DNA from: an uncultured Thiotrichaceae bacterium
GTDB lineage: Bacteria; Pseudomonadota; Gammaproteobacteria; Thiotrichales; Thiotrichaceae
Reading direction: 5' to 3'
Length of the DNA stretch: 64,000 bases
Assembly (NCBI GenBank): GCA_937925855.1
Contig: CALAMO010000044.1
Span: 1 to 64,000 of the forward strand
Under the pieces are notes generated by a model, which was not told the DNA's origin, did no database searches, and saw only the letters and a program-made list of their open reading frames with translations. The position numbers and the translations under genes were made by a program. Of the stretch, positions 23,933-39,643 are shown piece after piece. Within the stretch, counting starts at the first letter, position 1. Every line of letters starts with the position of its first letter.

Positions 23933-24249
23933 TCTAGACTCCGAACTATATGTGTACAAAAAAGGATGAGCACTACTGATTGAGCGTCATTGTGCGGGGA
24001 AAGGGCAGGCACTGCCAACACTTTTTTTAGGCGCTATAGTGCTCATGAACTCACACTTAGCCCAGCGCTTTAACCTAGCCGGGGCACGAGACTCATTCTG
24101 CTGACAGCTTGTTTGCCCTGACACCAAATGATACATTCCAGTAGCGTGCTAGCGGACTGGACTGAGGCGTACACGATTATAACTGCATTGCCGCTCGCCG
24201 CACCAGCGCTCCCAAATAACAGACACAGTAACGAGCAAAGCATCAAAAC
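23933..24249. other. Divergent promoter region between mmsA and the TAXI receptor
   Basis: About 317 bp with no credible gene. I find no clear promoter or operator beyond the ribosome site of mmsA. Confidence 0.4.
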
Positions 24250-25218
24250 ATGTTGAATATTAAACGCTTCATCCTGAGCGCTATGCTCACGCTTAGTTTT
24301 ACCCCGCCAGCCGCTGCCCAGCAGTTTATTTCTATGGGTACAGGTAGCGTGAGCGGTGTTTATTACCCAACCGGGTTCGCTATCTGTCGGCTAGTCAATA
24401 AAGGTCGCGAAACGCATGGCATTCGCTGCTCTGCAAGGGCTACTAGCGGCTCGGTATTTAATATTAACGCCCTCAAAACAGGCCAGCTAAGCTTCGGCAT
24501 TGCTCAGTCTGACTGGCAATATCATGCGCTCAATGGTAGCTCCACCTTTAAAGACGCCGGTCAATTTACAAAACTGCGCGCGCTGTTCTCAGTGCACGCC
24601 GAGCCGTTTACCCTGATTGCCCGCGCGGACAGCGACATTAATGACTTTATGGATCTGCGAGGTAAGCGCGTGCATGTCGGCAATCCCGGCTCTGGCCAAC
24701 GCGCCACCATGGAAGTGGTGATGCAAGCGATGGGACTGGAGATGAATGACCTTGCGCTGGCCGCCGAGCTCAAAGACTCAGAAATGACGCGAGCTATTTG
24801 CAGCAACCAAATTGATGCGATGATTTACACCATTGGGCACCCCGCAGCCGCGATTACTGAAGTCGCGGATAGCTGCGCGGTAAAATTAGTGAAAATCTCG
24901 GGTGATGCCATTGATAAACTGGTAGCCGATAACGCATTCTACCGAGTCGCCACGATTCCAGGCGGCATGTATCGAGGTAACGATACTGCCGTCACCACCT
25001 TCGGCGTCGGTGCTACTGTCATCAGTACGAGCGATGTACCGAAAGCCGTCGCTTACAACGTGACCAAAGCTGTGTTTGATCAGCTCGACGCTTTCAAACA
25101 GCTGCACCCCGCCCTTGCTAATTTACAGGCCAACCAGATGATTAAAGACGGCCTGTCTGCACCCCTCCATGCGGGTGCAGCAGAGTACTATAAAGAACGT
25201 GGCTGGTCGCCTGATTGA
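24250..25218 (+). CDS. TAXI-family TRAP transporter solute receptor
   Basis: Periplasmic receptor of 322 aa. Signal peptide about 1-23 ends PAAAQ. The mature start FISMGTGSVSGVYYPTGFAICRLVNKGR is the TAXI signature, with GIAQSDWQYHALNG, LRGKRVHVGNPGSGQRATMEVVMQAMG and AVTTFGVGATVISTSDVP following. TAXI receptors usually pair with a fused DctQM membrane protein; none is encoded nearby, so it is an orphan here. Ligand unknown (glutamate and other organic acids are known for the family). Confidence 0.9.
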   Translation: MLNIKRFILSAMLTLSFTPPAAAQQFISMGTGSVSGVYYPTGFAICRLVNKGRETHGIRCSARATSGSVFNINALKTGQLSFGIAQSDWQYHALNGSSTFKDAGQFTKLRALFSVHAEPFTLIARADSDINDFMDLRGKRVHVGNPGSGQRATMEVVMQAMGLEMNDLALAAELKDSEMTRAICSNQIDAMIYTIGHPAAAITEVADSCAVKLVKISGDAIDKLVADNAFYRVATIPGGMYRGNDTAVTTFGVGATVISTSDVPKAVAYNVTKAVFDQLDAFKQLHPALANLQANQMIKDGLSAPLHAGAAEYYKERGWSPD

Positions 25219-25259: not shown

Positions 25260-26387
25260 TTACGCCGCCGCCAGCCGCGCGCCTTCACTCAGCGCCGCCA
25301 GCTTGGCATAGGCAATATCAGGATCAACCGCCCCAAAGCCAGCGAAGGTACCAAAACCACAGTCTGTTCCAGCAATCACGCGCTCCACACCCGCAATATC
25401 GACAAAACGCCGGATGCGCTCGGCCACTAACTCAGGGTGCTCAACAAAGTTGGTCGTGGTATCCAGCACGCCCGGCACCAGCACCTTATCATCCGGTATA
25501 TCCGCCTTTCGATCGCGGAAGATCGTCCACTCATGTGCGTGGCGTGGATTGGACGTTTCAAACAGAACATAGCGTGCCTTAGTCCGCATTAGCGTATTAA
25601 ACACCTTACCCATACTGATATCGCAAATATGCGGCCCTTCATAATTGCCCCAGCAAATATGCACCCGTACCTTGTCCTGCGGCACGTTTTCCAGCGCGTG
25701 ATTGAGCGCAGCAACGTGCATATCTGCAATTTTCAGAAACTCATCATCGCTCAAATCCTGGAACAGCATATGGCGCGATAAGGCTAAGTCGGGGCAGTCC
25801 AGCTGCAGGTCTAAACCAGAGGCCACGATCGTCTCATACTCCGCTTTCATCACCTCAGACAGCGCCTCCAAGTATTGCTCCCGGCTGGCATAATGCGCAT
25901 TTTGCAGGAATAAAGCGATCACCCCCGGCGAGGCAGCATTCATAAAACCACGCGCAACGCCATGCTGCACCATACCCGCTTTGAGGTTAGCAATATCCGC
26001 CTGTAAATCGTCATCACCCTTGGCGGTAATTTCACCAGTACACATGGGACGTGAGTATTGTGGCGTGCCGCCATCATCGGCCAGTCGCTTCAAAAAGCCG
26101 GGAAACAGCTTAAGATCACCCGGTGCATTACGCTCGCTATCGCCACTGAAACCGGTATAACGATCTTTCACATAGGTGGCGTAAGAAATCTTCGAGGTCT
26201 CACCGTCGGAGACAATATCAACCCCCGCTTCAGCCTGACGGCCCACTGTTTCGGCGCAGGCAGCCGCCATACAGGCATCGAAGGCAGCCTGGTCGTAGTC
26301 TTCACCATGCTCACGCGCAAAAATGAAATCGACGACTTCCTGTTTACGCGGCAGTGAGCCGACGTGGGTGGTTAATATCTTTGACAT
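25260..26387 (-). CDS. MetE-type zinc methyltransferase barrel without the N-terminal MetE domain
   Basis: 375 aa, about half of a real MetE. The chain begins SKILTTHVGSLPR and folds as the catalytic UROD/MetE barrel. The zinc ligands of the MetE family can be traced as His243 and Cys245 (HICWGNY), Glu277 and Cys343 (GTDCGFG). Homologues are often labelled methionine synthase II. Core-MetE proteins and epoxyalkane:CoM transferases share this architecture and transfer methyl or alkyl groups to thiols. As last gene of the catabolic operon it more likely handles a methyl group or thiol adduct from the substrate than makes methionine. That role is inference. Confidence 0.8.
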   Translation of the reverse strand: MSKILTTHVGSLPRKQEVVDFIFAREHGEDYDQAAFDACMAAACAETVGRQAEAGVDIVSDGETSKISYATYVKDRYTGFSGDSERNAPGDLKLFPGFLKRLADDGGTPQYSRPMCTGEITAKGDDDLQADIANLKAGMVQHGVARGFMNAASPGVIALFLQNAHYASREQYLEALSEVMKAEYETIVASGLDLQLDCPDLALSRHMLFQDLSDDEFLKIADMHVAALNHALENVPQDKVRVHICWGNYEGPHICDISMGKVFNTLMRTKARYVLFETSNPRHAHEWTIFRDRKADIPDDKVLVPGVLDTTTNFVEHPELVAERIRRFVDIAGVERVIAGTDCGFGTFAGFGAVDPDIAYAKLAALSEGARLAAA

Positions 26388-26402
26388 ACATCATTCCTCC
26401 AG

Positions 26403-27365
26403 TTAATCCCAATGAGTCGCTCCGGCGGCGTCATCCGTATTGCGCACCCGGAACAGACTGGCTTCGCCTGTCATCGACGGCGAAAGACTGCGCGCTAAAC
26501 CGGTCGGCACCAAACAGGTATCCCCCGGAGCCAGCACAACCGCACCTCCGTCCCAGCTCAACTGCCAGTGCCCACGCAACACCATTAATACCTCATGGCG
26601 CTGCGTGTTGTACGGCGCCAATGGGGTATGTTGATTCACAAAGTCCACGCTAAAACCGGGCCGATCTTTAATCAAAGCCTGTGCGCCCAACACCGCTACC
26701 GGCTGCTGCTTGGCTAACGCCATCATATCCTGATAACGCGCCACAAAACGCGGCACTATGGCCGCCGTGGGCGCTTCACGAATCGTGGCGAGTTCTGCTG
26801 CCGTCATCAGCGGCATAGGCTTAACCCCCGATGGTAGGGTTTCGCCACGTTTACGATCATACAGCTTGCCCGTCTCCGCGAGCACTAAACCGTGCGCCTG
26901 CGCCTTTTCGATCACCTCTGGCGCCCAAATCACGCCACCACCGGCATCATCACCCCCCAGCATTGCCATAATCATGCCGTAATCAGTGCCGATATTCTCA
27001 AAGCCCCGAAACAGGTGCGTCGGGATATTGATAAAATCGCCTTCCTCCAACACCACGTCACCGGCATCCCCCTGCCGCCCCCAAAAAAAGCGCCAGCGTC
27101 CGCTGAGCACAAAAAACACTTCTGCTGTGCGGTGGGTGTGCAAGCTGTTGACACAATAAGGTGGCTGTCCTGCCGCACCGATATTAAAACCGGGAGTTTC
27201 TTTGATATGAACGTGCTGATCCGCACTTTCCGAGACGCCACCGCCAATAATTGTGAAGTTTTCCTTCTGATCCGAACCGGGCGTATGGGCATCGATAAAC
27301 GCCGTTTTACAGGGGATTAGCTCACCGTAACGTACGATGCGCGCGGCCATCGCCTGGGGTGTCAT
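26403..27365 (-). CDS. Bicupin protein, dioxygenase-like
   Basis: 320 aa with two cupin barrels. The first has a complete metal site: His76, His78, Glu82 (HTHRTAEVFFVLSG) and His117 (PTHLFRGFEN). The second (about 235-310, QRHEVLMVLRGHWQ) has lost most ligands, keeping only a His-Glu pair. Bicupins with one live site include gentisate- and quercetin-type dioxygenases and some isomerases or lyases. Start ATG overlaps the stop of the upstream SnoaL gene (ATGA). Substrate unknown. Confidence 0.82.
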   Translation of the reverse strand: MTPQAMAARIVRYGELIPCKTAFIDAHTPGSDQKENFTIIGGGVSESADQHVHIKETPGFNIGAAGQPPYCVNSLHTHRTAEVFFVLSGRWRFFWGRQGDAGDVVLEEGDFINIPTHLFRGFENIGTDYGMIMAMLGGDDAGGGVIWAPEVIEKAQAHGLVLAETGKLYDRKRGETLPSGVKPMPLMTAAELATIREAPTAAIVPRFVARYQDMMALAKQQPVAVLGAQALIKDRPGFSVDFVNQHTPLAPYNTQRHEVLMVLRGHWQLSWDGGAVVLAPGDTCLVPTGLARSLSPSMTGEASLFRVRNTDDAAGATHWD

Positions 27366-28351
27366 GCCGAAATACCCTCACCCGTTTGCAACACAATCTG
27401 CTTCCAAACCGCCGTTTCATCAAATAAAACATATTCACGGCGCAGCCCCCATGGCCCAAATTCAGCGTGACAGATTCCCATCACATAGACGTCTGCCCCA
27501 GTCGGCGTACCAAAGCGGCCCCAGCCATCATGCTTACCGCGCAGCGACCAGCGCAGCGCAGCACGCGGTGATAGCAGCGGGTCATCTCGTCCGATCTGAT
27601 GATGGATGGTGAACGTAGCCGATGGAAAGGCCGCGCGCAGCCCCATCCAAAACTCATCCACCGCACCCAACGAATGGCCAGTCTCACCGCCCGGATATTC
27701 CACCTGACAGCCCCGATCATACTCACGCACCACCGTCGCCATATCCGCCGTCATCAGGCCATTGAGAATAGCGGCATAGCGCTGACCCCATTCATTATCA
27801 TTGCCCTTACCTAGGTACGGCCCCGGCACATCAATCTCCGGGGTAAACGGCTGCACACAGTGCTTAGGCCCGCCCTCACGCTGAATCAGATCAATAGCAA
27901 ACGCCTTCGCCTCCCAGCCGAGCTGACGCACAATCGCCGCCTGATCCCGAATCAGCCATTCATCGTTAATTTGATTATTAATCGCGTGGCAGTCCGCAAT
28001 AATGCGATAGCTAAGCTTTTTACCAGTCGCCTTGCCGTATAGGCCATCATGCTGGTGAGTCGCCGTCGACAAAATGCGGTGCGAAGACAGCATGCCTTCC
28101 TCTGGCGTACCCGACCAAATAACATCCTCCCCCAACAGGGTGCGATCTGGAAATTCAGCCAGCGTCGCCATCGTCGCCGCGATCACCCCCTGATTGCCCA
28201 CCACCATCGAAGACGGCGAGCGCACCGGAATATCAGGGGCATAATAATGCTCTAGCGTCGCGATACCGCGCTCTTCCCAGATTTCTTTGGTAATCCCGAT
28301 GATGTAATCGGGGAAGTCCTGCCATTTAGGGTCAAAGCCTTGCATACTCAT
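27362..28351 (-). CDS. SnoaL/NTF2-like protein with two tandem domains (A)
   Basis: About 329 aa. The start ATG at 28351 overlaps the SDR stop (ATGA) and is preferred to an ATG four codons upstream. Two NTF2-fold segments can be seen: about 10-155 (YIIGITKEIWEERGIATLEHYYAPDI, then SHRILSTATHQHDG) and about 180-325 (QRYAAILNGLMTADMATVVREYDRGCQVEYPGG). SnoaL-like folds act as aldol cyclases, dehydratases, isomerases or hydrolases on small ring compounds. I cannot assign one of these. Confidence 0.78.
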   Translation of the reverse strand: MSMQGFDPKWQDFPDYIIGITKEIWEERGIATLEHYYAPDIPVRSPSSMVVGNQGVIAATMATLAEFPDRTLLGEDVIWSGTPEEGMLSSHRILSTATHQHDGLYGKATGKKLSYRIIADCHAINNQINDEWLIRDQAAIVRQLGWEAKAFAIDLIQREGGPKHCVQPFTPEIDVPGPYLGKGNDNEWGQRYAAILNGLMTADMATVVREYDRGCQVEYPGGETGHSLGAVDEFWMGLRAAFPSATFTIHHQIGRDDPLLSPRAALRWSLRGKHDGWGRFGTPTGADVYVMGICHAEFGPWGLRREYVLFDETAVWKQIVLQTGEGISA

Positions 28352-29112
28352 CCTGCTGTCCATCCACCGTCAATTAATAACGCAGTGCCCGTAATCAGCG
28401 CCGCTGCATCAGACGCCAAAAACACTGCCGCCCCCATCACATCCTCAATCTCACCGACGCGCCCCAGCTTGATCTTCTCCTCGATCCAAGCTCGGCGCTC
28501 AGGATTCTGCAAAGTCACCTCCGCCAGCGGTGTACGGATAAACGTCGGGCAAATAGTATTCACCCGAATTTGATCGGCAGCCCACTCAATCGCCATCGCC
28601 TTCGTCATGCCTTCAATCGCGTGCTTACTGGCGCAGTAGACCGAACGATCTACACCGCCCACATGCGCCATCTGGCTGGAGATATTAATAATGCTGCCAC
28701 CGTTACCGGCAGACTGCATACCCCGCGCCACCGCCGTCATCAAAAAAAAGGCGGCCCGCACATTCAAATCCATCACCACGTCATAATTATCCGGCGTGGT
28801 TTCTAACGCGGGCGCATGGCGTGCCATGCCTGCGCTGTTGATCATAATGCGGTATGGTTCGGTCGCGTTGAGCTGTGCCACCAGCGCATCCTGATCGGTG
28901 ACGTCAAGAGTCATCGCCTCAGCCTGATGTCCAGCAGCACGCAGCGCATCTACAATCTCAGACAGCGCATCCGCGCGCCGCGCCGCCAAGGTCACCTGCG
29001 CACCCGCCTCAGCTAGCGCCACCGCGCAGCCCATACCAATCCCCGACGAGGCACCGGCCACTATGGCCCGCCGCCCATCGAGACGAAATGACGGTGTTAG
29101 GGGTAAATGCAT
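28348..29112 (-). CDS. Short-chain dehydrogenase/reductase
   Basis: 254 aa classical SDR. Cofactor motif AGASSGIG at 19-26, with AARRAD after beta-2; NSAG near 92-95; catalytic Ser about 145-146, Tyr159 and Lys163 (YCASK); C-terminal TGTALLIDGGWTAG. It probably oxidises a secondary alcohol. It starts 3 bp before the upstream gene ends its stop region and is coupled to the downstream SnoaL gene by an ATGA overlap. Confidence 0.88.
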   Translation of the reverse strand: MHLPLTPSFRLDGRRAIVAGASSGIGMGCAVALAEAGAQVTLAARRADALSEIVDALRAAGHQAEAMTLDVTDQDALVAQLNATEPYRIMINSAGMARHAPALETTPDNYDVVMDLNVRAAFFLMTAVARGMQSAGNGGSIINISSQMAHVGGVDRSVYCASKHAIEGMTKAMAIEWAADQIRVNTICPTFIRTPLAEVTLQNPERRAWIEEKIKLGRVGEIEDVMGAAVFLASDAAALITGTALLIDGGWTAG

Positions 29113-29115
29113 ACG

Positions 29116-30174
29116 TTAATTCTCGACCTCTGGTATCGGAAAGGCAATGCCGCCCATATTACGGGCCTTATTAAATTCCCGCAGGCGCGCAAACACATCA
29201 ACGCCGAGCTGCGCATACATACTGAGTAAATCGACCAGTACCCAGTTCTCGCGAATCAGCCCGTACTCCAACCGCCAGAAATCCAGCGAGCGCATAGTGA
29301 TTTTTTTACCGGTGGGCGCAATGCCCAACCAGCCACCAGCCGTGATCGTCTGGATCATATTCGGCCAGCCGGTCACCGCGACATAATCGCCATCACCAAA
29401 GAAATGATAATCAATCTGATCAACGTACTGCCCCCGATCCGGCATCGCATTTAAAAAAGGAATCTGGTGCCAGTGACGAAACCCCGCAATACCCCGCCCA
29501 GTACCAATACCGGCTGGGCCATACCAATTCATCTTGGGGTGCCAAAAACGCGCCATCTCCATCACCTCTGGCCCACCCTGTGAGGGGTGTTTCTTCATAT
29601 AAGTCAGCATATCGATCACATGTTGACAGGATGCCGCCGACTGTTGCGCATGATACGGCCCTGGAATCATGCCGTCTTGCGTCGCCGGTGCTGGCACCTG
29701 CCACTCGCGCCCCAGTGAGGGAGCCAGCGGCCACGCATTAGCCTGTAGCATCACCTCCGGTATATCCCACAGCGCCTGCATCTCAACCACCTGATTATCG
29801 ACGATGCGGTAAAATTCATGGAAGCGCATGGCCACCTGCTGACCCGTAGGCGGAATACTCAGCCAGGGTTGAACTAAGGTTCCCGTATAATAACCGCCGC
29901 AGCCCACCCAATGCTGCCCGCGCTCACAGGTACCTGCCATCACGATATAGTCACGCCGCTCCAAGTCAGGTATCGCCTGCTTTAGAGGCTGATACGCCTG
30001 TTGATATAAGCCCTCTGCCCCCACCAGATCCTCAAACGGGTGGCAGAGTTTAACCTCGGCATCGTGCCGGAAAAGCCGACGCAATTCCGCCTGTACTCGT
30101 GCTGGCTCATAGTCATATTGCGCTCGCCGCAGCGGCGCTAACAGCGCTTTGTGTTGGGTATGCAGATCAGCCAT
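29116..30174 (-). CDS. SnoaL/NTF2-like protein with two tandem domains (B)
   Basis: 352 aa. The ATG at 30174 follows GAGGTG with proper spacing; a TTG one codon earlier is less likely. The two halves are paralogous: WLSIPPTGQQVAMRFHEFYRIVDNQVVE (about 105-135) in the first, and WLGIAPTGKKITMRSLDFWR with LIRENWVLVD (about 290-325) in the second. The latter is very close to the single-domain protein at 31555. Gap to the dehydrogenase gene upstream is 8 bp. Enzymatic role unknown. Confidence 0.78.
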   Translation of the reverse strand: MADLHTQHKALLAPLRRAQYDYEPARVQAELRRLFRHDAEVKLCHPFEDLVGAEGLYQQAYQPLKQAIPDLERRDYIVMAGTCERGQHWVGCGGYYTGTLVQPWLSIPPTGQQVAMRFHEFYRIVDNQVVEMQALWDIPEVMLQANAWPLAPSLGREWQVPAPATQDGMIPGPYHAQQSAASCQHVIDMLTYMKKHPSQGGPEVMEMARFWHPKMNWYGPAGIGTGRGIAGFRHWHQIPFLNAMPDRGQYVDQIDYHFFGDGDYVAVTGWPNMIQTITAGGWLGIAPTGKKITMRSLDFWRLEYGLIRENWVLVDLLSMYAQLGVDVFARLREFNKARNMGGIAFPIPEVEN

Positions 30175-30182
30175 CAAGCACC

Positions 30183-31493
30183 TCAGCCTTCAGCTACCCC
30201 AGCATACGGTACGTCTTTACCGCCGTAGCGCCGCACCCGGATATTGGCCTGCTCACCGTGCCCGGCGAAATGCTCCAGCGCGCACAACCGCGAACAATAC
30301 TCCCCGACCAAGGCCGATGCCTCATCAGTCGTCACTCGCTGGTAGGTATGCGTTTTAATAAATTTACCGACCCAAAGGCCACCGGTGTAACGCCCCGCCT
30401 TTTTTGTGGGCAGGGTATGATTCGTGCCGATGACTTTATCGCCGTAGGACACATTTGTGCGCGGCCCCAGGAACAACGCACCATAGCTGGTCATATTATC
30501 AAGAAACCAATCATCACGCTCCGTCATCACCTGCACATGCTCAGAGGCGTAGAAATTAGCCTGCTCCAACATCTCATCGTAGGTATCACACACAATCACT
30601 TCGCCATAGTCGGCCCACGACTTACCGGCTGTTTCCGCCGTTGGCAAGATTTTCAGCTGGCGCTCAATCTCAGCCAGAGTATCATGCGCCAGCTGCTCTG
30701 AATTAGTCAGCAGCACCGCAGGCGAGTTATAACCATGCTCCGCCTGCCCCAGTAAATCTGTCGCACAGAGCTCACCATCTACCGTATCATCCGCAATCAC
30801 CATCGTCTCTGTTGGCCCAGCAAACAGGTCAATCCCCACCCGGCCATACAGCTGGCGCTTGGCTTCAGCGACAAAGGCATTGCCCGGACCAACTAGCATA
30901 TCGACACCTTCAATCGACTCTGTACCTAAGGCCATCGCCCCCACGGCCTGCATACCACCCAGCACATAAATCTCATCGGCACCGGCTAAATGCATCGCCG
31001 TTACAATCGCCGGGTGCGGCTTTCCTTGATACGGCGGTGCTGAGGCGATAATACGCGGCACACCCGCCACCTTAGCTGTCAGTACACTCATATGCGCCGA
31101 CGCCACCATAGGAAACTTACCGCCGGGCACATAGCAACCGACCGAATTTACCGGTATATTTTTATGCCCCAAAATCACACCGGGCAGGGTTTCTACTTCA
31201 ATATCCTGCATGGAATTACGCTGATGCTGGGCAAAGTTACGGATTTGATCCTGCGCGAACTTGATATCAGCCAAATCACGTTCTGATACCTCAGACATAG
31301 CCTGTGCAATTTCTTCCGCACTCAGGCGATAGGATTCACGCGCTAACCCATCGAATTTTACCGACAGCTCACGCACCTTGGCGTCGCCCTGCGCTTCGAT
31401 TTCAGCCAGCGTGGTTTCAACAACGGTGCGCACCTTGGCATCATCTTCACTGCGTTCTGCGGCGCTCTTAGCCGTTTTTAAACGTCTGATCAT
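30183..31493 (-). CDS. Histidinol-dehydrogenase-family enzyme, HpsN-like
   Basis: 436 aa, zinc-dependent NAD alcohol/aldehyde dehydrogenase fold. Expected zinc and catalytic residues are present: Gln250 and His253 (GQAEHG), Glu318-His319 (ASEH), Asp352 ([11 protein letters not shown]) and His412. The wording [26 protein letters not shown] and the C-terminal [19 protein letters not shown] match the branch that contains HpsN, the sulfopropanediol dehydrogenase, rather than biosynthetic HisD. No his gene is near. It should perform a four-electron oxidation of a terminal CH2OH to a carboxylate; the actual substrate is not known. Confidence 0.85.
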
Positions 31494-31554
31494 CAGTCTT
31501 GCTCCAATCTATAAAATTTGGGGGTGACCGGCGGCGCACGCCCCGATCAATGCG

Positions 31555-32085
31555 CTAGCCTTGAGGTTGGGGTGCTACTTTTTCACCTCGATCAAATGCC
31601 TCCCAACCTTCGCCCGCAAAACAATCCTTACCCAACTGCGCCATCACATGCGGGAAATCCACCATCACCCAATTATCGACAATTTTACCCTCAACCACTT
31701 TCCAAAAATCCATATAGCGAATTTCTACCTTTTTGCCGCTGGGGGCAATGCCCATAAATTCACCGGAGTGAGTGGCCTCCTGACGCCCAAAGGCGGCGGC
31801 CCATTCGCCCATGTACAGGCGGGCTTCGTCAATGCACGTTTTATCAGAGAAAGCGGCCTGGAAGGGTTTTTGCCAATTGTCCTGAAATTCCTGTAGGCCT
31901 GTTTTGGTGCCGCAGCCCGCATTGCCCATCCAGCGAAAACCTTCGCTAAAAAATTCGCCGATGTCTGCAATGCGGTGGTCGTTGAGGCCATCGACCATAC
32001 TTTCAATAACGGCGCGAGTTTCTGCGGTTTTACTCATGTCGGTGTCGCGGCTAAGCACGGCCTGTTCGGGTCTAGAACCTTTCAT
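31555..32085 (-). CDS. SnoaL/NTF2-like protein, single domain
   Basis: 176 aa. ATG at 32085 is chosen: AGGAG (32091-32095) is 5 bases upstream, while the in-frame GTG overlaps that site. The NTF2 pattern GFRWMGNAGCGTKTGLQEFQDNW, GEFMGIAPSGKKVEIRYMDFWK and KIVDNWVMVDFPHVMAQLG is shared with the second half of the protein at 29116. It is the first gene of the seven-gene leftward operon, with the shared palindromic operator 47-62 bp upstream. Confidence 0.8.
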   Translation of the reverse strand: MKGSRPEQAVLSRDTDMSKTAETRAVIESMVDGLNDHRIADIGEFFSEGFRWMGNAGCGTKTGLQEFQDNWQKPFQAAFSDKTCIDEARLYMGEWAAAFGRQEATHSGEFMGIAPSGKKVEIRYMDFWKVVEGKIVDNWVMVDFPHVMAQLGKDCFAGEGWEAFDRGEKVAPQPQG

Positions 32086-32131: not shown

Positions 32132-32147
32132 TTGCATACGAATGCAA
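32132..32147. promoter_or_regulatory. Palindromic operator upstream of the catabolic operon
   Basis: TTGCATACGAATGCAA: 6-bp arms TTGCAT/ATGCAA with a centre C-G step, as in LacI/GalR-family operators. A close copy lies at 37907-37922 before the ABC importer. The surrounding 19 bases agree at 17 positions. Confidence 0.65.
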
Positions 32148-32240
32148 GAGCGATTTAGGCTAGGGCACAAAGCAGCAAGAGTTGACTTCCAGAAAGGCTT
32201 GCTACTATATTAATCTAGTCATAAACCTGTAAGGCATCGA

Positions 32241-32271
32241 CCTCACAAACATAGAAGTCTGCGACTTCCAC
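32241..32271 (+). repeat. Dispersed palindromic repeat, copy 1
   Basis: CCTCACAAACATA followed by palindrome GAAGTC-TGC-GACTTC. It resembles copies at 37766-37793, 37819-37850, 50779-50808 and, inverted, 48061-48085. It lies about 30 bases before the RDD gene. Confidence 0.6.
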
Positions 32272-32299
32272 TTCAATTTATTCAGCAGGATATAAACAT

Positions 32300-32785
32300 A
32301 TGAACAATAATATTTACGCAGCTCCCAATGCCGAGATTCAAGATCTTGAGCTCCAAAACCAGCAAAATTACGAATTAGCTGGATTCTGGCGCCGTTTTGC
32401 TGCCTCAATCGTTGACGGTATTTTGATTATTTTAGTGACGCTGCCACTATCCTACTTATTTTTTGGCGGAGCCTTTTTCGCTGACACCAAGCCTTTTATA
32501 TTAGGCCCCATGGATTTTGTGATTAACTATATCCTGCCGTTCGTTATTATTATCGCGTTTTGGAAAATGAAATCAGCCACACCAGGAAAAATGTTACTCG
32601 GCATTAAAATCATTAATGCAAATAACGATGGACAGCCATCAACCGGTCAATTTATTGGTCGCTATTTTGCTTATATTCTCTCAGCGGTCGTTTTAATGCT
32701 GGGCTATCTGTGGATGCTTTGGGACAAGAGAAAGCAAACTTGGCACGATAAGCTGGCTCGTACTTTAGTGGTACGCACTCGCTAA
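32300..32785 (+). CDS. RDD-family membrane protein
   Basis: 161 aa. A polar N-terminus is followed by the RDD signature AGFWRRFAASIVDGILI (Arg...Asp-Asp-like charged residues in helix 1), a second helix near 65-85, the conserved TPGKMLLGIKI, and a third helix LSAVVLMLGYLWMLWD ending KRKQTWHDKLARTLVV. RDD proteins are small inner-membrane proteins, some linked to ion transport. It is a single gene on the plus strand between two leftward operons; function unknown. Confidence 0.85.
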   Translation: MNNNIYAAPNAEIQDLELQNQQNYELAGFWRRFAASIVDGILIILVTLPLSYLFFGGAFFADTKPFILGPMDFVINYILPFVIIIAFWKMKSATPGKMLLGIKIINANNDGQPSTGQFIGRYFAYILSAVVLMLGYLWMLWDKRKQTWHDKLARTLVVRTR

Positions 32786-32880
32786 TATAAATCCACACCA
32801 TATCACCTCAGCTACAGGACTGAAGCGGTTACAAGCCGCTTCAGCTACCCATGTCTTCAGCCCAGCCTTTCGTCGCAGCA

Positions 32881-34047
32881 TCAGCCCTTAACCGCGCCCG
32901 CCGTTAAGCCACTGACGATCTGCTTCTGGAACACCATCACCAACAGTAACAGGGGCGCAGTAATCGACACCGCCGCCGCCACCGCTTCTACCTGATCCGT
33001 TGTACTAGTCTCACGATTAAAGTAGCCCGTAATCGCAGGCACCATCGTCTGATTTTGCGCATCCAGCAAGAGCGAAGTCACCAGAAAATCGTTATAAGCC
33101 AACAGAAAGCTAAATAAACCAGTGGTAATCACTCCCGGCCACATCACCGGCATAATCACTCGGCGGAAGGCTTCAAAATGCGTGCAGCCATCAACGCGCG
33201 CGGCCTCATCCAGTTCAGTCGGAATACTTTGGAAAAAACTACGCAGCATCCAGATCGTAAACGGCTGGTTAATCGCTACCAGTACGGCAATCACCGCCCA
33301 AGGCTGACCGTAGAGGGTGGGCGCACTCGCGCCAAAAACGTCAAACACCGGTTGCAACCATTCCGAAGAGGTAATAAACACCGGCAGGTACCCCGCCACT
33401 AAAACTGAATGCGGTAATGCCCGGAAAATCAGCGCCAGGATCAATAGCCAAAATGCCAGATTAGAACCAGAACGTGCCAGCCCATAACCCGCGAGTGTCC
33501 CCACAGTCAGCGACAGCAGCACAACTCCCGCCGTCACCAGCAGTGAATTAAGGAAATTGCGGTAGAACTCATTCTCTACCCATACGGCGTAATAATGCTC
33601 CGTGGTCAGTCCCAGTACTGGCTCACCGAGGCTCCCCAACAGGCCGTTAACGCCCTGCATCACTGGCGGCAACACACCAAAAAACAGCAATACAAAGGCC
33701 AAGCCCGTTAGAATAGCCGCCAAAATCCAGCCGAACCACAGCTGTCCTCCCGGCGCATACTGCTGTACTTTGGCGGGCAACCACCGCACGACCCCGCGCA
33801 TAAAAAAGAACAGCACAATCAGGCCAATTACGATATCCGGCACCGACAAACCCTGCCCTCCGGCCAAGGTTTCCGGGCCAAAAATGACCGAGGTTGGCTT
33901 ATCAGCAAAGGCATCCAGCGGCACCTTAAAACTCATCACCATGATCCAGAAGATCGGGAAGGCCGCAATCAGACACCAGAACGCAATAAACGCGCCCGAG
34001 CCAATGCGCAGCGCTAAAGGCTGACGTAACGCGCGTGGTGTACTCAT
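32881..34047 (-). CDS. CUT1-type ABC permease, MalG-like, enlarged
   Basis: 388 aa against about 280 for a normal MalG-type subunit. Helix 1 (IGSGAFIAFWCLIAAFPIFWIMVMSF) is followed by an insert of about 100 residues that contains two additional hydrophobic segments (DIVIGLIVLFFFMRG and GWILAAILTGLAFVLLFFGVL). The normal core then resumes at NFLNSLLVTAGVVLLSL, with the EAA loop DEAARVDGCTHFEAFRRVIMPVMWPG. ATG shares its A with the stop of the upstream permease (TGATG). Confidence 0.88.
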   Translation of the reverse strand: MSTPRALRQPLALRIGSGAFIAFWCLIAAFPIFWIMVMSFKVPLDAFADKPTSVIFGPETLAGGQGLSVPDIVIGLIVLFFFMRGVVRWLPAKVQQYAPGGQLWFGWILAAILTGLAFVLLFFGVLPPVMQGVNGLLGSLGEPVLGLTTEHYYAVWVENEFYRNFLNSLLVTAGVVLLSLTVGTLAGYGLARSGSNLAFWLLILALIFRALPHSVLVAGYLPVFITSSEWLQPVFDVFGASAPTLYGQPWAVIAVLVAINQPFTIWMLRSFFQSIPTELDEAARVDGCTHFEAFRRVIMPVMWPGVITTGLFSFLLAYNDFLVTSLLLDAQNQTMVPAITGYFNRETSTTDQVEAVAAAVSITAPLLLLVMVFQKQIVSGLTAGAVKG

Positions 34048-35072
34048 CAGTGCCCCCCCCGCTTATGGTCGCGCCAAGTACGGCGCAGTAGTGGAATCAA
34101 CAGCAGCACAATACCGATCATGGTGAGCATCGCACTGGCGGACGCGCGGGCAATCGAGCGGTTACCGGCATCATCTGGGGTGAGAAAATCATAGGTCAAC
34201 CATTGCAGCGAAATCACATGTGCCTGACTGGAGAACCCCACAATCTCTTCAAACACCCGATAGCAGTCCATCAGGTGAATCAGCGCCACAAAGATAATCA
34301 GCGGCATTAGGTGCGGCACTAAGACATAGCGCACTCGTTCCCAGCGGCTGGCCCCATCCACAATGGCGCTTTCCAAGGTGTCCTGATTCAGGGTTTGCAA
34401 ACCGGCATAAAAAATCACAAACGCGAAGGGCGCAACATGCCACACCCGGTAGAAATACATCAGCAGCTCGATCGTCCAGGCCTGCGCGAACATGGCAATA
34501 TCCTGTTGCAGCCACTGCTCCAGCATGGCCGTCATAATCCCATCGCCAATAAACAGCCAGCGAATGGATAAGGCGCCAATAACCGGGGTAATAATGAAAG
34601 GGAGTAGTGTAATAAAAATAATCGGCCCGCGGATCGACTTCAAGGCATTATTAATCGCCACCGCCAGCGCTAAGCCAACCAGCAATACCAGCGGCAGAGT
34701 CAACAGCGTAAAGGTGAGGGTAAAACGCAGCGCCTTCCAAAAATCAATGGTCAGGATTTCTGACCAGCGCCCCACGTCAATCGCCTGCCACACCCGATCC
34801 ATATCCAAGAGATCGCGGTAACTTTGCAAGCCGACATAATGCGTCTCAACCAGCGGCTTGCCGTCTGCACCTAAGACAGGCTGCGAGCTGGTTTCCTCCT
34901 GACAAATTTGTTTGATGAAACCCGGTGTACACACCTCACGGGTGACGGTTTCATAAACCGGTTGGGTGTGGTGGAAACTCTGGATAAAAACACTGACCAA
35001 AGGCGCAGCAATAAACAGCAGCATCATCAATATCGATGGCCCGACAAAGGCAACAAAGGTCTTAAACTTCAT
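34047..35072 (-). CDS. CUT1-type ABC permease, MalF-like
   Basis: 341 aa from the preferred ATG at 35072 (MKFKTFVAFVG); an in-frame ATG eight codons earlier is possible. Helix 1 is followed by a periplasmic loop with two cysteines (VCTPGFIKQICQEE), unusual for the family. The core carries the EAA loop LESAIVDGASRWERVRYVLVPHLMP. The gene ends in eight G residues on the coding strand (34053-34060) just before the TGATG junction with the next permease. Confidence 0.88.
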   Translation of the reverse strand: MKFKTFVAFVGPSILMMLLFIAAPLVSVFIQSFHHTQPVYETVTREVCTPGFIKQICQEETSSQPVLGADGKPLVETHYVGLQSYRDLLDMDRVWQAIDVGRWSEILTIDFWKALRFTLTFTLLTLPLVLLVGLALAVAINNALKSIRGPIIFITLLPFIITPVIGALSIRWLFIGDGIMTAMLEQWLQQDIAMFAQAWTIELLMYFYRVWHVAPFAFVIFYAGLQTLNQDTLESAIVDGASRWERVRYVLVPHLMPLIIFVALIHLMDCYRVFEEIVGFSSQAHVISLQWLTYDFLTPDDAGNRSIARASASAMLTMIGIVLLLIPLLRRTWRDHKRGGH

Positions 35073-35177
35073 TGGGCATAGGCTCCCGCGCTGCAAATCA
35101 TGGACATGATTAAATGTTGGAATAAAAAAGAGTGGTGGAGAAGCACCCCCGCTGTATTAGGCGGAGGCACTACAAAG

Positions 35178-35202
35178 GAAAACCCTCCCCGAATGAGGAG
35201 GA
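35178..35202 (-). terminator. Attenuator-like hairpin between receptor and permease genes
   Basis: On the minus strand CCTCCTC pairs with GGGGAGG (one G-U) around ATTC, followed by GTTTT. Lying after the receptor gene, it could lower permease expression relative to receptor, as in other binding-protein operons. Confidence 0.6.
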
Positions 35203-35216
35203 TTTAGCTTTTAAGC

Positions 35217-36440
35217 TTACTTAATCAAACCTGCCTCTTTAGCAGCCTTGGTATAATCCGCTTCCATATCCGCCAACGTAGTCGCGGCATCTTTCTTACC
35301 CGTCAAGTAATCCGCCAGATTAGAGCCCGCAACGGTGTGAATCATACCGTGAGCTTTAGAAGCGGGATAAGATGGCGCGCCCGCTGCTGCTGAATCGGCA
35401 GCACCTTTGGCGGCTGGGCCAGGGGTATAGCCTTTAATCAGCCAGACAGCGTCATCGTTGTTGGCCTTAACCATTTCCTCGTCCAGACCTTCCATCGCCA
35501 CTTTAAAGGCCGCTTCAGCTTGATCGTCAGGGATATTTGCCGCAATGGTGACACCGTCCCACCACAAGGTAGTGGCTGGCTTGCCCCCTTCCATCGCCAC
35601 AGGGGCCGCCGCCATCTTCACTTTGCCGACGACCTTAGACTCTTTTTCATCATCCATCGCACCGGCGCGTGAGGCCCACAGATTAGCCATGGCAATCTTG
35701 CCCTGCTGGAACTGCTGCTGCACATAAGTCGAATCAGAAGTCAGATACTCAGGGTCCATGTACTCAGTCATTGCTTTCAGCATTTCCAGCGCTTTAACAC
35801 CGGCTGCGTTATTCAGCGTAGCCGCATTGCCCTCGCCAAAGAACTCACCGCCAAAGCCCATGTACATATTGATGAACTCTTCACCCAGGTTCCAACCGGT
35901 CTTAAAGGTACCGCCGATAGGATAATCCACTTTGCCAGACGCTTTGATCTTGGCAGCGGCTTCCAACATGGCCGCATAAGATGTCGGTGGTTCAATACCC
36001 AGTTCGCCCAGGATGTCGCTGCGGTACATTAGGTGTTGCGCGTTAACCATCATCGCGATTGCCATGATTTTGCCATCAATTTTGATCAGCTGATTAGGCG
36101 ACAGGTGCTGACCATACTTAGCGACCAAATCATCCAATGGGCGCACCGAGTTATCACCCATCAGCGTAACCAAAGTAGAGTTAGACACACCGCCGATGTG
36201 ATACAGCGAAGGATTCGCCTTCATGGCTTCCGGCTGCTTCGTCTTGTACTCCTGATCCAGCTCACCCTCAAAGTTACCGCACTCAGACATGGCAGCAGCC
36301 ACGGCTTTCCATGCATCAAAACCCGCAGACAGTGACTTCAACGGCACTTCATTTTTAAACGCACAGGCCGCCATTACTGAACCTGACGCCATCATTCCAG
36401 CGCTTAACGCGACGGCTAAAAACAGTTTTTTCATTTGCAT
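35217..36440 (-). CDS. ABC transporter substrate-binding protein, family 1
   Basis: 407 aa from the ATG at 36440, which has GGAGGAG 5 bases upstream; an in-frame GTG two codons earlier overlaps that site. Signal peptide MQMKKLFLAVALSAGMMASGSVMAAC, cleavage after MA. The body resembles sugar or polyol receptors (LYHIGGVSNSTLVTLM, DGKIMAIAMMVNAQHLMYRSDILGELGIEPPTSYAAMLEAA). It shares its operon with an ATPase upstream and two permeases downstream. Ligand unknown; co-regulation suggests it imports the substrate of the operon at 25260-32085. Confidence 0.88.
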   Translation of the reverse strand: MQMKKLFLAVALSAGMMASGSVMAACAFKNEVPLKSLSAGFDAWKAVAAAMSECGNFEGELDQEYKTKQPEAMKANPSLYHIGGVSNSTLVTLMGDNSVRPLDDLVAKYGQHLSPNQLIKIDGKIMAIAMMVNAQHLMYRSDILGELGIEPPTSYAAMLEAAAKIKASGKVDYPIGGTFKTGWNLGEEFINMYMGFGGEFFGEGNAATLNNAAGVKALEMLKAMTEYMDPEYLTSDSTYVQQQFQQGKIAMANLWASRAGAMDDEKESKVVGKVKMAAAPVAMEGGKPATTLWWDGVTIAANIPDDQAEAAFKVAMEGLDEEMVKANNDDAVWLIKGYTPGPAAKGAADSAAAGAPSYPASKAHGMIHTVAGSNLADYLTGKKDAATTLADMEADYTKAAKEAGLIK

Positions 36441-36605
36441 GATCACTCCTCCGATTACATCATCAATAAATAAGTTAATTACAACACCAACTGTGAAAAA
36501 TTATACATTCTTAAATAAACGGGCATAATAATTCATCAGCTTTAATCAAATATCAAGCCCTGCTCGCGCAGCGTTTCCGTTTAGAACAAACCTTCAGGCC
36601 AAACC

Positions 36606-37664
36606 TCAAGCCTGGATTTTATCACCGCTAGCCCGATCAAACAGATGGCATTTATCAGCGCTAATACTGAAACCAACCGGCTCACCAATACCAATGCGGT
36701 AATCCTTATCGGCTTTTACCGAGACCAGCGCCTCCGCAACACGCACCGTTACCATAGTCGCATCACCCAACAGTTCCATACTATAAACCGGCGCGCTGAT
36801 TGCGGCCTCTGGCCCCGGTGTGCTCACCGCCGCATCCTCGGCCCGAAAGCCCAGCGTCACGCTAGCGGATAAGCCACTCGCTAAGCCAGTGATCTGCATG
36901 CCGGGCGCGCTAAACACGCCGTCAGCGATCTCACCGTTGACTAGGTTCATCGCAGGCGAGCCAATAAAACCAGCGACGAAGGTATTAGTGGGATGATTAT
37001 AAATATCGGTCGGGGTGCCAACCTGTTGAATCTCCCCGGCTTGCATCACCACCACTCGATCAGCCAGCGTCATGGCTTCAATCTGATCATGGGTGACATA
37101 AATAGTGGTGACCTGTAATTCATGCTGTAGGTTTTTCAGCTGCGCCCGCGTCGAGACGCGCAGTTTCGCATCCAGATTAGACAGCGGCTCATCCATTAGG
37201 AAAACCGTCGGCTGGCGCACCACGGCCCGCGCTAAGGCAACGCGCTGGCGTTGGCCGCCGGACAACTCACGCGGCAGTCGTTCTAGTAAATCACCCAGCT
37301 CCACCATATTCGCTGCCCGCTTGACCCGCTCATCGTGGGTCGCCGGATCGACTTTACGCACCTTCAGCGGAAAGCGAATATTTTCGTATACGGTTAAATT
37401 GGGGTATAAGCCGTAGCTTTGGAACACCATCGCCACATCGCGATCTTTCGGATCAAGTCGATTCACCACACGCTCGCCGATATGGATTTCGCCGGTCGAA
37501 GGATCTTCTAGCCCGGCAATCATGCGCATAGTCGTGGTTTTTCCACAGCCCGATGGACCAAGAAAAACAATAAACTCACGGTCAGCAATTTCCAAATTAA
37601 TATCTTTGGCACCATAAACCTTGCCCCAGCGTTTGGACAGATTCGATAGAGTGATGCTTGCCAT
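36606..37664 (-). CDS. ABC transporter ATP-binding protein, MalK/UgpC type
   Basis: 352 aa from ATG 37664 (MASITLSNLSKRWG), with GGAGG 11 bases upstream; the longer frame back to 37775 covers a repeat element and is unlikely coding. Walker A FLGPSGCGKTT, Q-loop MVFQSYGLYPNLTVYEN, signature LSGGQRQRVALARA, Walker B VFLMDEPLSNLDAKLR, and the C-terminal TOBE/OB domain from about 240. It is unusual in coming first in its operon, 165 bp before the receptor gene. Confidence 0.92.
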   Translation of the reverse strand: MASITLSNLSKRWGKVYGAKDINLEIADREFIVFLGPSGCGKTTTMRMIAGLEDPSTGEIHIGERVVNRLDPKDRDVAMVFQSYGLYPNLTVYENIRFPLKVRKVDPATHDERVKRAANMVELGDLLERLPRELSGGQRQRVALARAVVRQPTVFLMDEPLSNLDAKLRVSTRAQLKNLQHELQVTTIYVTHDQIEAMTLADRVVVMQAGEIQQVGTPTDIYNHPTNTFVAGFIGSPAMNLVNGEIADGVFSAPGMQITGLASGLSASVTLGFRAEDAAVSTPGPEAAISAPVYSMELLGDATMVTVRVAEALVSVKADKDYRIGIGEPVGFSISADKCHLFDRASGDKIQA

Positions 37665-37765
37665 GTAGCGTCTGACCTCCAAATAGTTTGGTGCGCTTAA
37701 GCCCATATAGTTATGGCACAGGTTATCACACCGAATAACCTGTAACGAGTCATGAGAAAATTTTA

Positions 37766-37850
37766 CCCTCGGCATGAAAATCTGCGATTTCCACGGTCAC
37801 GAGCACAAAAAAACCTTCACCCTCAAGCCATGGAAAACTACGGTTTTCAC
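37766..37850 (+). repeat. Dispersed palindromic repeat, copies 2 and 3 in tandem
   Basis: Two neighbouring copies: CCTCGGCATG with AAATC-TGC-GATTT (37778-37790), and CCTCAAGCCATG with GAAAAC-TACG-GTTTTC (37833-37848). Both are in the same orientation as copy 1. Confidence 0.6.
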
Positions 37851-37906: not shown

Positions 37907-37922
37907 ATGCATACGCATGCAA
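37907..37922. promoter_or_regulatory. Second copy of the shared palindromic operator
   Basis: ATGCATACGCATGCAA, closely matching 32132-32147. It lies 243 bp upstream of the ABC ATPase start (minus) and 100 bp upstream of the small ORF at 38022 (plus). Confidence 0.6.
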
Positions 37923-38021: not shown

Positions 38022-38201
38022 ATGATGAAATCTAACGCCCCTTACATCAAGCAGGCCCACACTAAACTGCCGCCCTTCCCCGGCACCCCCCGCGCTAAGC
38101 GGCCGGGTCAGCCGCACAAATCCCACCCCGCCAACCGCAATGAACGCCTCGCCAGCTGGCACCAGCGCATGCACTCCCTGTTTACACGCCAGACATATTG
38201 A
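38022..38201 (+). CDS. Possible 59-aa basic protein
   Basis: ATG-ATG start preceded by GAAGAGAAA. The product begins MMKSNAPYIKQAHTKLPP, is rich in Pro, His, Arg and Lys, and contains PGTPRAKRPGQPHKSHPANR. It ends 38 bp before the deaminase start. I recognise no family. Its position just after the operator and its unusual composition make it plausible, but it is short and unproved. Confidence 0.35.
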   Translation: MMKSNAPYIKQAHTKLPPFPGTPRAKRPGQPHKSHPANRNERLASWHQRMHSLFTRQTY

Positions 38202-38239
38202 TTTACAAAGGGCACTCTTTAACCACAGGGCGACGTAAC

Positions 38240-39643
38240 ATGACTTCAATCCTGCTGCAAAACGCAACGCTGCTCGCGACATTTGACGATCAAAATACTG
38301 AAATAGCGGATGGCGGCGTTTATATTGAAGATCATGTCATACAACAGGTCGGCACCTCAGCCGAGCTGCCCGCAACGGCAGACCAAGTGTTCGACCTTAG
38401 CGACCACCTCATTTTACCGGGCTTGGTGAATACCCATCACCATATGTACCAAACTTTGACGCGCTGTGTCGCACAGGATGCTGATCTGTTTACCTGGCTA
38501 AAAACGCTGTATCCGATTTGGGCAAAGCTGACGGATGAGGGGGTATACATCAGTAGCTTAACCGCCATGGCCGAGCTATTACTCTCCGGCTGTACGACCA
38601 GCAGTGATCACCTGTACATCTATCCCAACGACTGCACGCTAGATAGCCAAATTCGGGCTGCCCAGGAAATAGGCATACGCTTTCATGCCGCCCGTGGCTC
38701 GATGTCGCTGGGTGCAAGCCAGGGCGGACTGCCACCAGACAACTGCACTGAGGATGAGGCCGCTATTCTGGCGGACTGTCAGCGCCTGATTGAGACCTAC
38801 CACGACCCCGCGCCCTACTCGATGCTGCGTATGGTACTGGCGCCCTGCTCACCGTTTTCAGTCACCGGAGAACTAATGCGCAAAACCGCCGCCCTGGCGC
38901 GACAATATGCAAACGTCACCCTCCATACCCATCTCGCAGAAACGCTGGATGAGGAGCAGTTTTGCCTAGAGAAATTTGGCATGCGCCCGGTGGAATATGC
39001 CGCATCGCTGGGCTGGACAGGGGACGATGTCTGGCACGCACACTGCGTGCATATGGATGACACCGAGATCAGTACCTTTGCCGCCAGCGGCACCGGCGTC
39101 GCGCACTGCCCGACCAGCAATATGCGCCTCGCCAGCGGCATCGCACCAGTGCCTAAAATGACGCAGGCCGGGGTTAAGGTCGGCCTGGGAGTGGATGGCT
39201 CCGCCTCGAATGATGGCAGTAATATGCTGGCTGAAGCGCGCCAGGCCATGCTCATCCAACGCATCGCCCCCCATGAGTATGCCGCCAACGTACCCGCAGG
39301 CAGTCGCGCAGGGTTCGCGGGTAACCCGGCAGCGATGTCAGCGCGCGCCGCATTACGTCTGGCTACTCGCGGTGGGGCCGCCACGCTGGGACGTGATGAC
39401 ATTGGCTCGCTGGCGGCTGGCAAAGCGGCGGATGTCATCGCGGTTAACCTGAACCAGCTCCAGTACGCGGGTGCCGGGCATGACCCGCTAGCCGCAGTGG
39501 TATTCTGCCAGCCGTTTAACGTCGATCTATCGATTATCAACGGTCAGGTCGTAGTCGCTAACGGTGCCTTACAAACCGTCGACATGCAGCAGCCGCTCCA
39601 GCGGCATCGCGAACTGTCGCAGCAGATGCTGGGTGCAGATTAA
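38240..39643 (+). CDS. 8-oxoguanine deaminase-type amidohydrolase
   Basis: 467 aa from MTSILLQNATLLATF at 38240; an in-frame TTG at 38198 lies inside the preceding small ORF. Metal site NTHHHMYQT (His66 and His68), further HTHLAET and HCVHMDD, and the metal Asp in GLGVDGSASNDGSN. This wording fits the branch with 8-oxoguanine deaminase and hydroxyatrazine hydrolases. It likely deaminates a purine or s-triazine-like ring. The phosphoribosyltransferase that follows supports purine salvage. Confidence 0.85.
   Translation: MTSILLQNATLLATFDDQNTEIADGGVYIEDHVIQQVGTSAELPATADQVFDLSDHLILPGLVNTHHHMYQTLTRCVAQDADLFTWLKTLYPIWAKLTDEGVYISSLTAMAELLLSGCTTSSDHLYIYPNDCTLDSQIRAAQEIGIRFHAARGSMSLGASQGGLPPDNCTEDEAAILADCQRLIETYHDPAPYSMLRMVLAPCSPFSVTGELMRKTAALARQYANVTLHTHLAETLDEEQFCLEKFGMRPVEYAASLGWTGDDVWHAHCVHMDDTEISTFAASGTGVAHCPTSNMRLASGIAPVPKMTQAGVKVGLGVDGSASNDGSNMLAEARQAMLIQRIAPHEYAANVPAGSRAGFAGNPAAMSARAALRLATRGGAATLGRDDIGSLAAGKAADVIAVNLNQLQYAGAGHDPLAAVVFCQPFNVDLSIINGQVVVANGALQTVDMQQPLQRHRELSQQMLGAD

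Follow-up and report, generated by a model that had tools for sequence, protein, structure and literature searches.

Two described systems come closest to the locus considered here. One is the catabolism of 2,3-dihydroxypropanesulfonate (DHPS) in Roseobacteraceae, in which HpsN is a four-electron alcohol-to-acid dehydrogenase of the histidinol dehydrogenase (HDH) fold; the other comprises the non-phosphorylating sugar-acid pathways, such as the L-fucose type and the sulfo-Entner-Doudoroff pathway. We analyzed a 64,000-nucleotide stretch of an uncultured Thiotrichaceae bacterium (contig CALAMO010000044.1; hereafter the window), in which seven minus-strand genes at 25260-32085 are accompanied by an upstream ATP-binding cassette (ABC) importer. 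The cluster shares with DHPS catabolism the HDH-fold dehydrogenase, a nearby short-chain dehydrogenase/reductase (SDR) and importer, and its occurrence in marine bacteria. With the sugar-acid pathways it shares the SDR, a sugar ABC importer, a LacI regulator, a fuconolactonase-like or SMP-30 lactonase and an HpcH/HpaI or RraA aldolase, the dehydrogenase being present in the window and the lactonase and aldolase in relatives. The cluster is a real, conserved and compact regulon, best interpreted as serving to catabolize a sugar-like or cyclitol-like metabolite. Its parts belong to known families, and their combination and control are undescribed as far as we searched.

The open reading frame (ORF) listing and Pfam returned all seven leftward genes in the order given by the preliminary description. 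These are a single SnoaL protein of the NTF2 fold (SnA, 31555..32085), the HDH-fold predicted alcohol-to-acid dehydrogenase (30183..31493), a double SnoaL protein (SnB, 29116..30177), the SDR (28348..29112), a second double SnoaL protein (SnC, 27362..28363), a bicupin (26403..27365) and a MetE-like barrel (25260..26387). The SnA start was best set at ATG 32085, with GGAGTG ahead of it, and the ORF list gives a longer GTG start at 32091. The described spacing of 3-61 bp gaps held for the gaps themselves (SnA-HDH 61 bp, HDH-SnB 5 bp, SnB-SDR 3 bp, bicupin-MetE-like 15 bp), whereas of the overlaps, described as ATGA, only the 4-bp overlap of SnC and bicupin is of that kind and that of SDR and SnC spans 16 bp. 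The five NTF2-type domains claimed for the three SnoaL proteins were recovered by Pfam (1+2+2; SnC also matches SnoaL_2), and the remaining proteins matched Histidinol_dh, adh_short_C2, Cupin_2 (two stretches) and Meth_synt_2. The SDR resembles KduD and gluconate 5-dehydrogenase, scoring 201.8 bits against the NCBIfam KduD model (below its cut-off of 338.85). On the same strand at 32881-37775 lie the four genes of a carbohydrate-type importer: an ATPase of the UgpC/MalK type (36606..37775; ABC_tran; NCBIfam UgpC 434.4 bits, cut-off 432), a solute-binding protein (SBP; SBP_bac_1, 35217..36446), and permeases A (34047..35096) and B (32881..34047), both BPD_transp_1. The genes of relatives in the position of permease A are 38-82% identical to it. 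PDB matches of the SBP were a sugar ABC protein (5iai), the sulfoquinovosyl-glycerol binder SmoF and a sorbitol binder, and all of them scored low, with no more than 51.5 bits.

The two halves appear to be joined by a predicted LacI-type operator, TTGCATnCGnATGCAA, a palindrome with a central CG that lies ahead of transcription units as expected of a LacI regulon. An exact copy, TTGCATACGAATGCAA, is found at 32132-32147, about 47 bp ahead of the SnA ATG, and a copy with one mismatch at 37907-37922, about 132 bp ahead of UgpC; these are the sole two sites with at most one mismatch in the 3.57 Mb genome. Because the operator precedes both halves, the importer is assigned to the same unit as the seven genes, and the limits of 25260-32085 given earlier are too narrow. 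Nine further sites with two mismatches in this genome look like background (control: 5 at no more than two), and the three sites found in the window at up to three mismatches do not exceed chance (mean 5.4). Across 213 loci, some of them overlapping, 111 matches with at most one mismatch were recorded, and 11 permuted palindromes built in the same way gave 0-9. We also searched whole 34 genomes carrying the cluster or its HDH, three of which have the HDH without the bicupin. Here 50 sites were found in 30 genomes, 42 at the cluster and eight elsewhere, sorted by coordinates with "at the cluster" covering sites up to 11 kb from SnB, HDH or bicupin and, in locus L261, those beside RraA/SBP; the reversed operator gave no site in any of the 34. 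In roseobacters there are often two copies, 54-56 bp apart, in the divergent promoter between SnoaL and UgpC.

The four loci of the window family provide a further comparison. Leucothrix pacifica appears to belong to the same family as the window, since genome G026 ranked as same-family with the window and the position of its SnB matches that in the L. pacifica genome G057. Two of the four operons are split, that of the window by an RDD gene and that of L. pacifica by about 8 kb, and only these two have an operator before SnA; the unsplit loci L028 and L111 have none there even at three mismatches. Although the number is small, this is what would be expected of a functional operator. The junction between permease B and SnA (window 32148-32880; L109 3150-11600) looks like an insertion point. 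It holds the plus-strand RDD gene (32300-32785) in the window and other genes in L. pacifica, one of them PIN-toxin-like by eye, and in the unsplit L028 it holds an inverted repeat.

We scanned genome contigs with SnB and kept 80 of 83 loci encoding a relative. Most belong to marine Rhodobacterales, with others from Leucothrix, SAR324, SUP05, SAR116, Thioalkalivibrio and a Desulfobacterales bin, the last holding little of the cluster beyond SnB. Near the window, 4 of 57 genomes carry the cluster, its own genome counted. Plasmid records extend the cluster to Ensifer adhaerens and Paracoccus alcaliphilus; those of Vibrio pelagius and Halobellus limi carry partial sets or cousins of it. The order UgpC-SBP-permease-permease-SnA-HDH-SnB-SDR-(LacI)-SnC-bicupin-(methyltransferase)-MetE-like-alpha/beta hydrolase-RraA is conserved in Ruegeria, Shimia, SAR116 and others. 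In Ruegeria sp. AD91A, for example, an amidohydrolase and a SnoaL gene are divergent from UgpC, SBP, two permeases, SnA, HDH and SnB, followed by SDR, LacI, SnC, bicupin, an S-adenosylmethionine (SAM) methyltransferase, the MetE-like gene, an alpha/beta hydrolase and RraA. Among the 42 of 80 loci of at least 19 kb, 31 contain SnA, HDH, SnB, SDR, SnC and bicupin together, in identical order in all 31, which exceeds chance. The other genes of the 42 long loci are the importer (40), LacI (38), MetE-like (35), hydrolase (31), RraA (31) and amidohydrolase (24). The window operon lacks an in-place LacI, hydrolase and RraA, and its genome has a SnoaL-amidohydrolase pair (44% and 42%) on a third contig.

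Co-occurrence was then assessed independently of SnoaL in 248 genomes from the family of a Ruegeria. The bicupin was found in 102 (E<=1e-60) and the HDH clade in 123 (E<=1e-150); both were present in 98 genomes compared to 51 expected (Fisher exact test; p = 2e-39, which kinship among the genomes keeps from being a true probability). The two genes lie within 12 kb of each other in 86 of the 98 (median 5.0 kb). In four genomes with the bicupin only, it sits 1.4-5.1 kb from a contig start, and the one contig inspected begins just before SnB. Sequence upstream was sufficient at 89 of the 105 bicupin matches, 60 of which were fetched as loci and read within about 10 kb; some stretches are cut and a simple ORF caller was used, so that the counts are lower bounds. 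They contained HDH in at least 54, LacI in at least 54, SnoaL in at least 51 (two or more in at least 50), SDR in at least 49, MetE-like in at least 45, permeases in at least 44, hydrolase in at least 37, RraA in at least 28, UgpC in at least 26, amidase in at least 5 and a GMC oxidoreductase in at least 4. The 248-genome sample, the 60 bicupin loci and the 42 long loci agree that the genes stay together in other genomes; their failure to do so was one of the two outcomes that would have refuted the preliminary description.

The individual proteins were compared with their nearest characterized families by fold searches, which name families only and leave room for a family outside those listed. 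All three SnoaL proteins fall in the SnoaL/NTF2 superfamily (Pfam SnoaL 59.9-76.6 bits, cut-off 28.4; SnA 76.6). The AlphaFold model of SnB (predicted local distance difference test, pLDDT, 89.8) has two NTF2 domains, and its best PDB match was AclR (Z 17.5, 147 residues, 5.0 A), others including SnoaL2, IdmH and PhzA/B. The proteins share the NTF2 fold and a conserved W...D motif with the SnoaL/AknH polyketide ester cyclases, and they differ in that two of the three are fusions of two domains, that their context is catabolic and that SnA is far below the NCBIfam SnoaL_meth_ester cut-off (38.7 versus 200 bits). The bicupin model (pLDDT 83.8) has the bicupin fold over its whole length (Z ~20, 230 residues, 3.2 A), with quercetinase, gentisate-type and oxalate-decarboxylase folds tied at Z 19-20, and H76, H78 and E82 are kept in 52 of 52 rows. 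The MetE-like protein shares with core MetE and MetE-like alkyl transferases a barrel with the HxC...C zinc site (H243, C245 and C343 in at least 97% of 54 sequences), but falls below every NCBIfam methionine synthase cut-off listed (best 83.6 of 406 bits). Since it keeps the zinc ligands, it may transfer a methyl or alkyl group, but no MetE-like gene was seen within the stretch read at 15 of 60 bicupin loci.

With somewhat more confidence than doubt, we propose that the seven genes and the importer form one LacI-type regulon through which a small marine metabolite, sugar-like or cyclitol-like and bearing a CH2OH group, is imported and oxidatively degraded. Gene content, conservation, the common operator and the catalytic residues kept in HDH and the MetE-like protein are seen directly in the sequences; we infer each reaction, the reaction order and the substrate class. 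The substrate class is suggested by the LacI and importer classes and by the fuconolactonase-like and SMP-30 lactonases and sugar-acid-type aldolases of relatives, and the emphasis on sulfur in the preliminary description is not supported, in contrast to its view of the operon as catabolic-looking. The UgpC-type importer would take the substrate in, and the SnoaL enzymes, by elimination, cyclization or C-N/C-O hydrolysis, would convert several related precursors to one intermediate, a step that an amidase may replace in some relatives. HDH would then oxidize the CH2OH of the intermediate to COOH, the SDR a ring or chain carbinol, and in relatives the lactonase would open a lactone. The MetE-like zinc protein may transfer a methyl or alkyl group to a thiol, the bicupin may rearrange or cleave the carbon skeleton, and the alpha/beta hydrolase with an RraA or HpcH/HpaI aldolase of relatives would lead to pyruvate. 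Twelve stretches around an operon-clade HDH without the bicupin (L149-L160; L152 is a second HDH of a carrier genome) have an adjoining SDR in six and a LacI nearby in five. By eye, one stretch includes a 2-keto-3-deoxygluconate (KDG)-kinase-like gene, one an AGE-type epimerase and several include sugar ABC genes; tripartite ATP-independent periplasmic (TRAP) transporter genes and a BKACE-like gene are present as well; as a whole these contexts lean towards sugar chemistry.

Several observations weigh against this proposal. Unlike the non-phosphorylating sugar-acid pathways, the window operon has no IlvD-type dehydratase among its genes by Pfam and has SnoaL, HDH, bicupin and MetE-like proteins in addition, the last of which has no usual place in sugar breakdown. 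Arg120 replaces the motif-2 metal His of the bicupin in 52 of 52 rows, so that the classical bicupin metal site of the quercetinase and gentisate types is absent, and the second cupin is little conserved. Bicupin and HDH lie apart in 12 of the 98 genomes that hold both, 25 of the 248 genomes have HDH without bicupin, and neither SDR nor LacI was seen in 4 of the 12 bicupin-free HDH stretches. The operator was not found at one mismatch or fewer in 4 of the 34 genomes searched whole. In the genome of the window itself, the LacI orthologue (56%) stands alone on another contig (G000:C53), unlinked to the cluster; a lactonase-SnoaL pair (C7) has no operator match at up to three mismatches; RraA was not found at E<=1e-6; and the one HpcH/HpaI gene lies elsewhere in an apparently unrelated operon. 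The annotations of relatives are automatic. As a side observation, the window genome also has a separate inositol-type locus with IolE- and IolC-like genes by eye and its own LacI (G000:C10 30000-48000; L124).

The variants suggest which parts can be exchanged. SnoaL is absent from 9 of the 60 bicupin loci. In three of these (L184, L185, L190) HDH-SDR-bicupin is joined by an amidase, by the same LacI (63-66%) and by operators with one or two mismatches, and the other six (L176, L178, L179, L194, L198, L202) have few or no other cluster genes. The exchange of SnoaL for amidase is not strict, because L180 and L200 contain both. In L179 the bicupin is beside an aldehyde dehydrogenase and a GMC-type oxidoreductase, with HDH elsewhere in that genome, and the two neighbors together could do the job of HDH; a GMC oxidoreductase lies inside the operon in L034, L035 and L108. 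The locus of Ruegeria SCSIO 43209 (L101) has an SMP-30 lactonase and an aldolase/citrate-lyase-family (HpcH/HpaI) gene, and its gene listing shows no amidohydrolase or RraA; in L084 the aldolase is of the HpcH/HpaI type (it scores 128.1 bits with a garL-type model whose cut-off is 393) and RraA is lacking. Judged by family, the lactonase and aldolase of L101, and the aldolase of L084, seem to have been swapped for unrelated proteins with the same kind of job. The overall pattern would fit a common core of CH2OH oxidation, bicupin, hydrolase and aldolase fed by exchangeable front-end enzymes. The corresponding Ruegeria proteins all score below their nearest models: the lactonase against L-fuconolactonase (108.9 of 400 bits), the alpha/beta hydrolase against PcaDC (93.1 of 390) and PcaD (71.1 of 255.85), and RraA against PRK08245 (52.1 of 208), with 4-carboxy-4-hydroxy-2-oxoadipate (CHA) aldolases weaker.

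More distant sets were also noted. A plasmid of the haloarchaeon Halobellus limi (L094 8614-13683) has five consecutive SnoaL genes and then a MetE-like gene, close to an ABC importer of the sugar type, with no HDH or bicupin match in the stretch, and may be regarded as a cousin of the system. Vibrio europaeus (L100 8474-13408) has a minimal set of a major facilitator superfamily transporter, one double SnoaL, a porin and a LacI, which suggests that the double SnoaL is sufficient to make a usable product. In Phaeobacter piscinae and an uncultured Roseobacter (L099, L091) a related system combines LacI, an ABC importer and SnoaL genes, and the stretches inspected there gave no match to HDH, bicupin or MetE.

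The substrate might instead be a familiar sugar or polyol with a pathway already reported in literature beyond our search, which we consider unlikely. About 40% of the sampled Rhodobacteraceae carry the bicupin, so that prior characterization is possible, and most subscription journals and preprints were outside the search scope. Within that scope, with some papers judged by titles or the starts of abstracts, a full-text search found no description of the gene combination and no matching pathway, in agreement with the earlier statement that no known pathway corresponds. No ordinary sugar is known to require a combination of several SnoaL proteins with a bicupin and a MetE-like protein.

A candidate to which we give still less weight is the bacterial degradation of mycosporine-like amino acids and gadusol, the marine algal sunscreens, by this cluster. 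Under it, SnoaL would free the amino acids, a task that in the variant would fall to an amidase attacking the vinylogous amide, and HDH would turn the CH2OH of the cyclohexenone core to COOH, with loss of water giving a methoxylated trihydroxybenzoate-like ring. The MetE-like protein would remove the O-methyl group, the bicupin would open the enol or diketone ring, and lactonase, hydrolase and a CHA-type aldolase would lead to pyruvate. This chemistry, which comes from reasoning alone, would give nearly every gene a job, the SDR least clearly. The hosts fit, including the coral isolate Ruegeria SCSIO 43209 and surface plankton; red algae are a habitat of Leucothrix, and sea ice one of Octadecabacter. 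Among the literature titles listed, nothing relevant to mycosporine or gadusol breakdown was found.

Other partners and substrates were considered and set aside. The SUP05 locus (L060) is flanked by carnitine dehydrogenase and BKACE genes, the latter named by eye, but a general link to carnitine or betaine was rejected from the positions of this carnitine dehydrogenase in other genomes. Carnitine dehydrogenase matches at E<=1e-30 occur somewhere in 30 of 36 carrier genomes. A match of at least 46% lies within 10 kb of SnB only at the SUP05 locus itself (G080). Elsewhere such matches share the contig with SnB at greater distances, namely about 22 and 33 kb (G089), 23 kb (G072), 57 kb (G070) and more than 100 kb (G060, G085 and G091), and G070 also has a weak homologue (34%) at 6 kb. 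Methanethiol oxidase (SBP56) was found at two loci only (Marinovum and Phaeobacter piscinae) and sarcosine oxidase at one (Vibrio pelagius), and a literature search gave no link to homarine. The genes for methylmalonate-semialdehyde dehydrogenase (22442-23959) and a TAXI-type binding protein (24250-25218) were rejected as pathway parts, the relatives' clusters met having only 22-33% homologues at few loci. The plus-strand Amidohydro_1 gene (38198..39643; Pfam), divergent from UgpC across the operator, is a possible regulon member, and a 54% homologue ends the cluster in L062.

It is highly improbable that the cluster degrades a C3 sulfonate or another small organosulfur compound in the manner of DHPS, with HDH and the SDR taking the roles of HpsN and HpsO, respectively. 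HpsN is the closest solved structure to the operon HDH (8v35, E 3.6e-113), the SDR class is compatible with HpsO, and SmoF is a weak match of the SBP. However, a tree built from HpsN and 23 HDH-fold proteins of seven genomes (24 sequences in all) resolved three clades, namely HisD, HpsN (signature GRY) and an operon clade whose signature is GK[FY]P, and each of the seven genomes has a member in every clade, so that an HpsN-clade gene is additional in all seven. The window HDH has GKFPM where nine HpsN-clade members have GRY, and is 46-48% identical to HpsN. Its genome carries a separate HpsN-type gene and a separate HisD-clade gene (on C6, 34% identical to the operon HDH), and the enzyme itself falls in neither of those clades. 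The earlier label "HpsN-like" thus holds for the fold and the sister-clade relationship and fails for the signature. Residues Q250, H253, D352, H412, E318 and H319 are conserved in at least 97% of 63 sequences, and the roles of the zinc ligands and the Glu-His pair are presumed from HisD. The window operon has no HpsP (a medium-chain dehydrogenase) or sulfite-releasing lyase, and it has SnoaL, bicupin and MetE-like proteins in addition, to which relatives add a lactonase and an aldolase; a sulfonate is at odds with LacI and with the lactonase and KDG-type aldolase that relatives carry. In the HpsN paper (PMC11131964), from which the residue roles are also partly taken, Arg124, Tyr125 and Ser126 are named as substitutions around the active site, a triplet that the operon clade lacks. 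The same paper gives an HpsN cut-off of 167 bits in an ocean survey. Against a Ruegeria HpsN-clade protein the operon clade scored 347-380 bits (8 tested) and the HisD clade 207-251 bits (7 tested); because both exceed that cut-off, hpsN survey counts at 167 bits may be inflated by members of these two clades.

That the cluster makes or detoxifies a polyketide-like or secondary metabolite, as the likeness of SnoaL to polyketide cyclases, methyl transfer, the SDR and the SAM methyltransferase of the Ruegeria cluster might suggest, has hardly any probability left, given that the window operon and Ruegeria cluster contain no polyketide synthase or other assembly genes, that uptake and breakdown are indicated by the importer with its binding protein, regulation by LacI, the lactonase and the aldolase, and that the cluster is present in genomes as small as 1.1 Mb (SUP05) and 2.2 Mb (SAR116).

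The operator allows the regulon to be defined in any genome and a construct reporting the inducer to be built. With the bicupin in 102 of 248 Rhodobacteraceae and the cluster also in SUP05, SAR116, SAR324 and Leucothrix, the occurrence is wide, and the substrate must therefore be common in the sea. The cluster probably lets many marine bacteria consume a common sugar-like compound.

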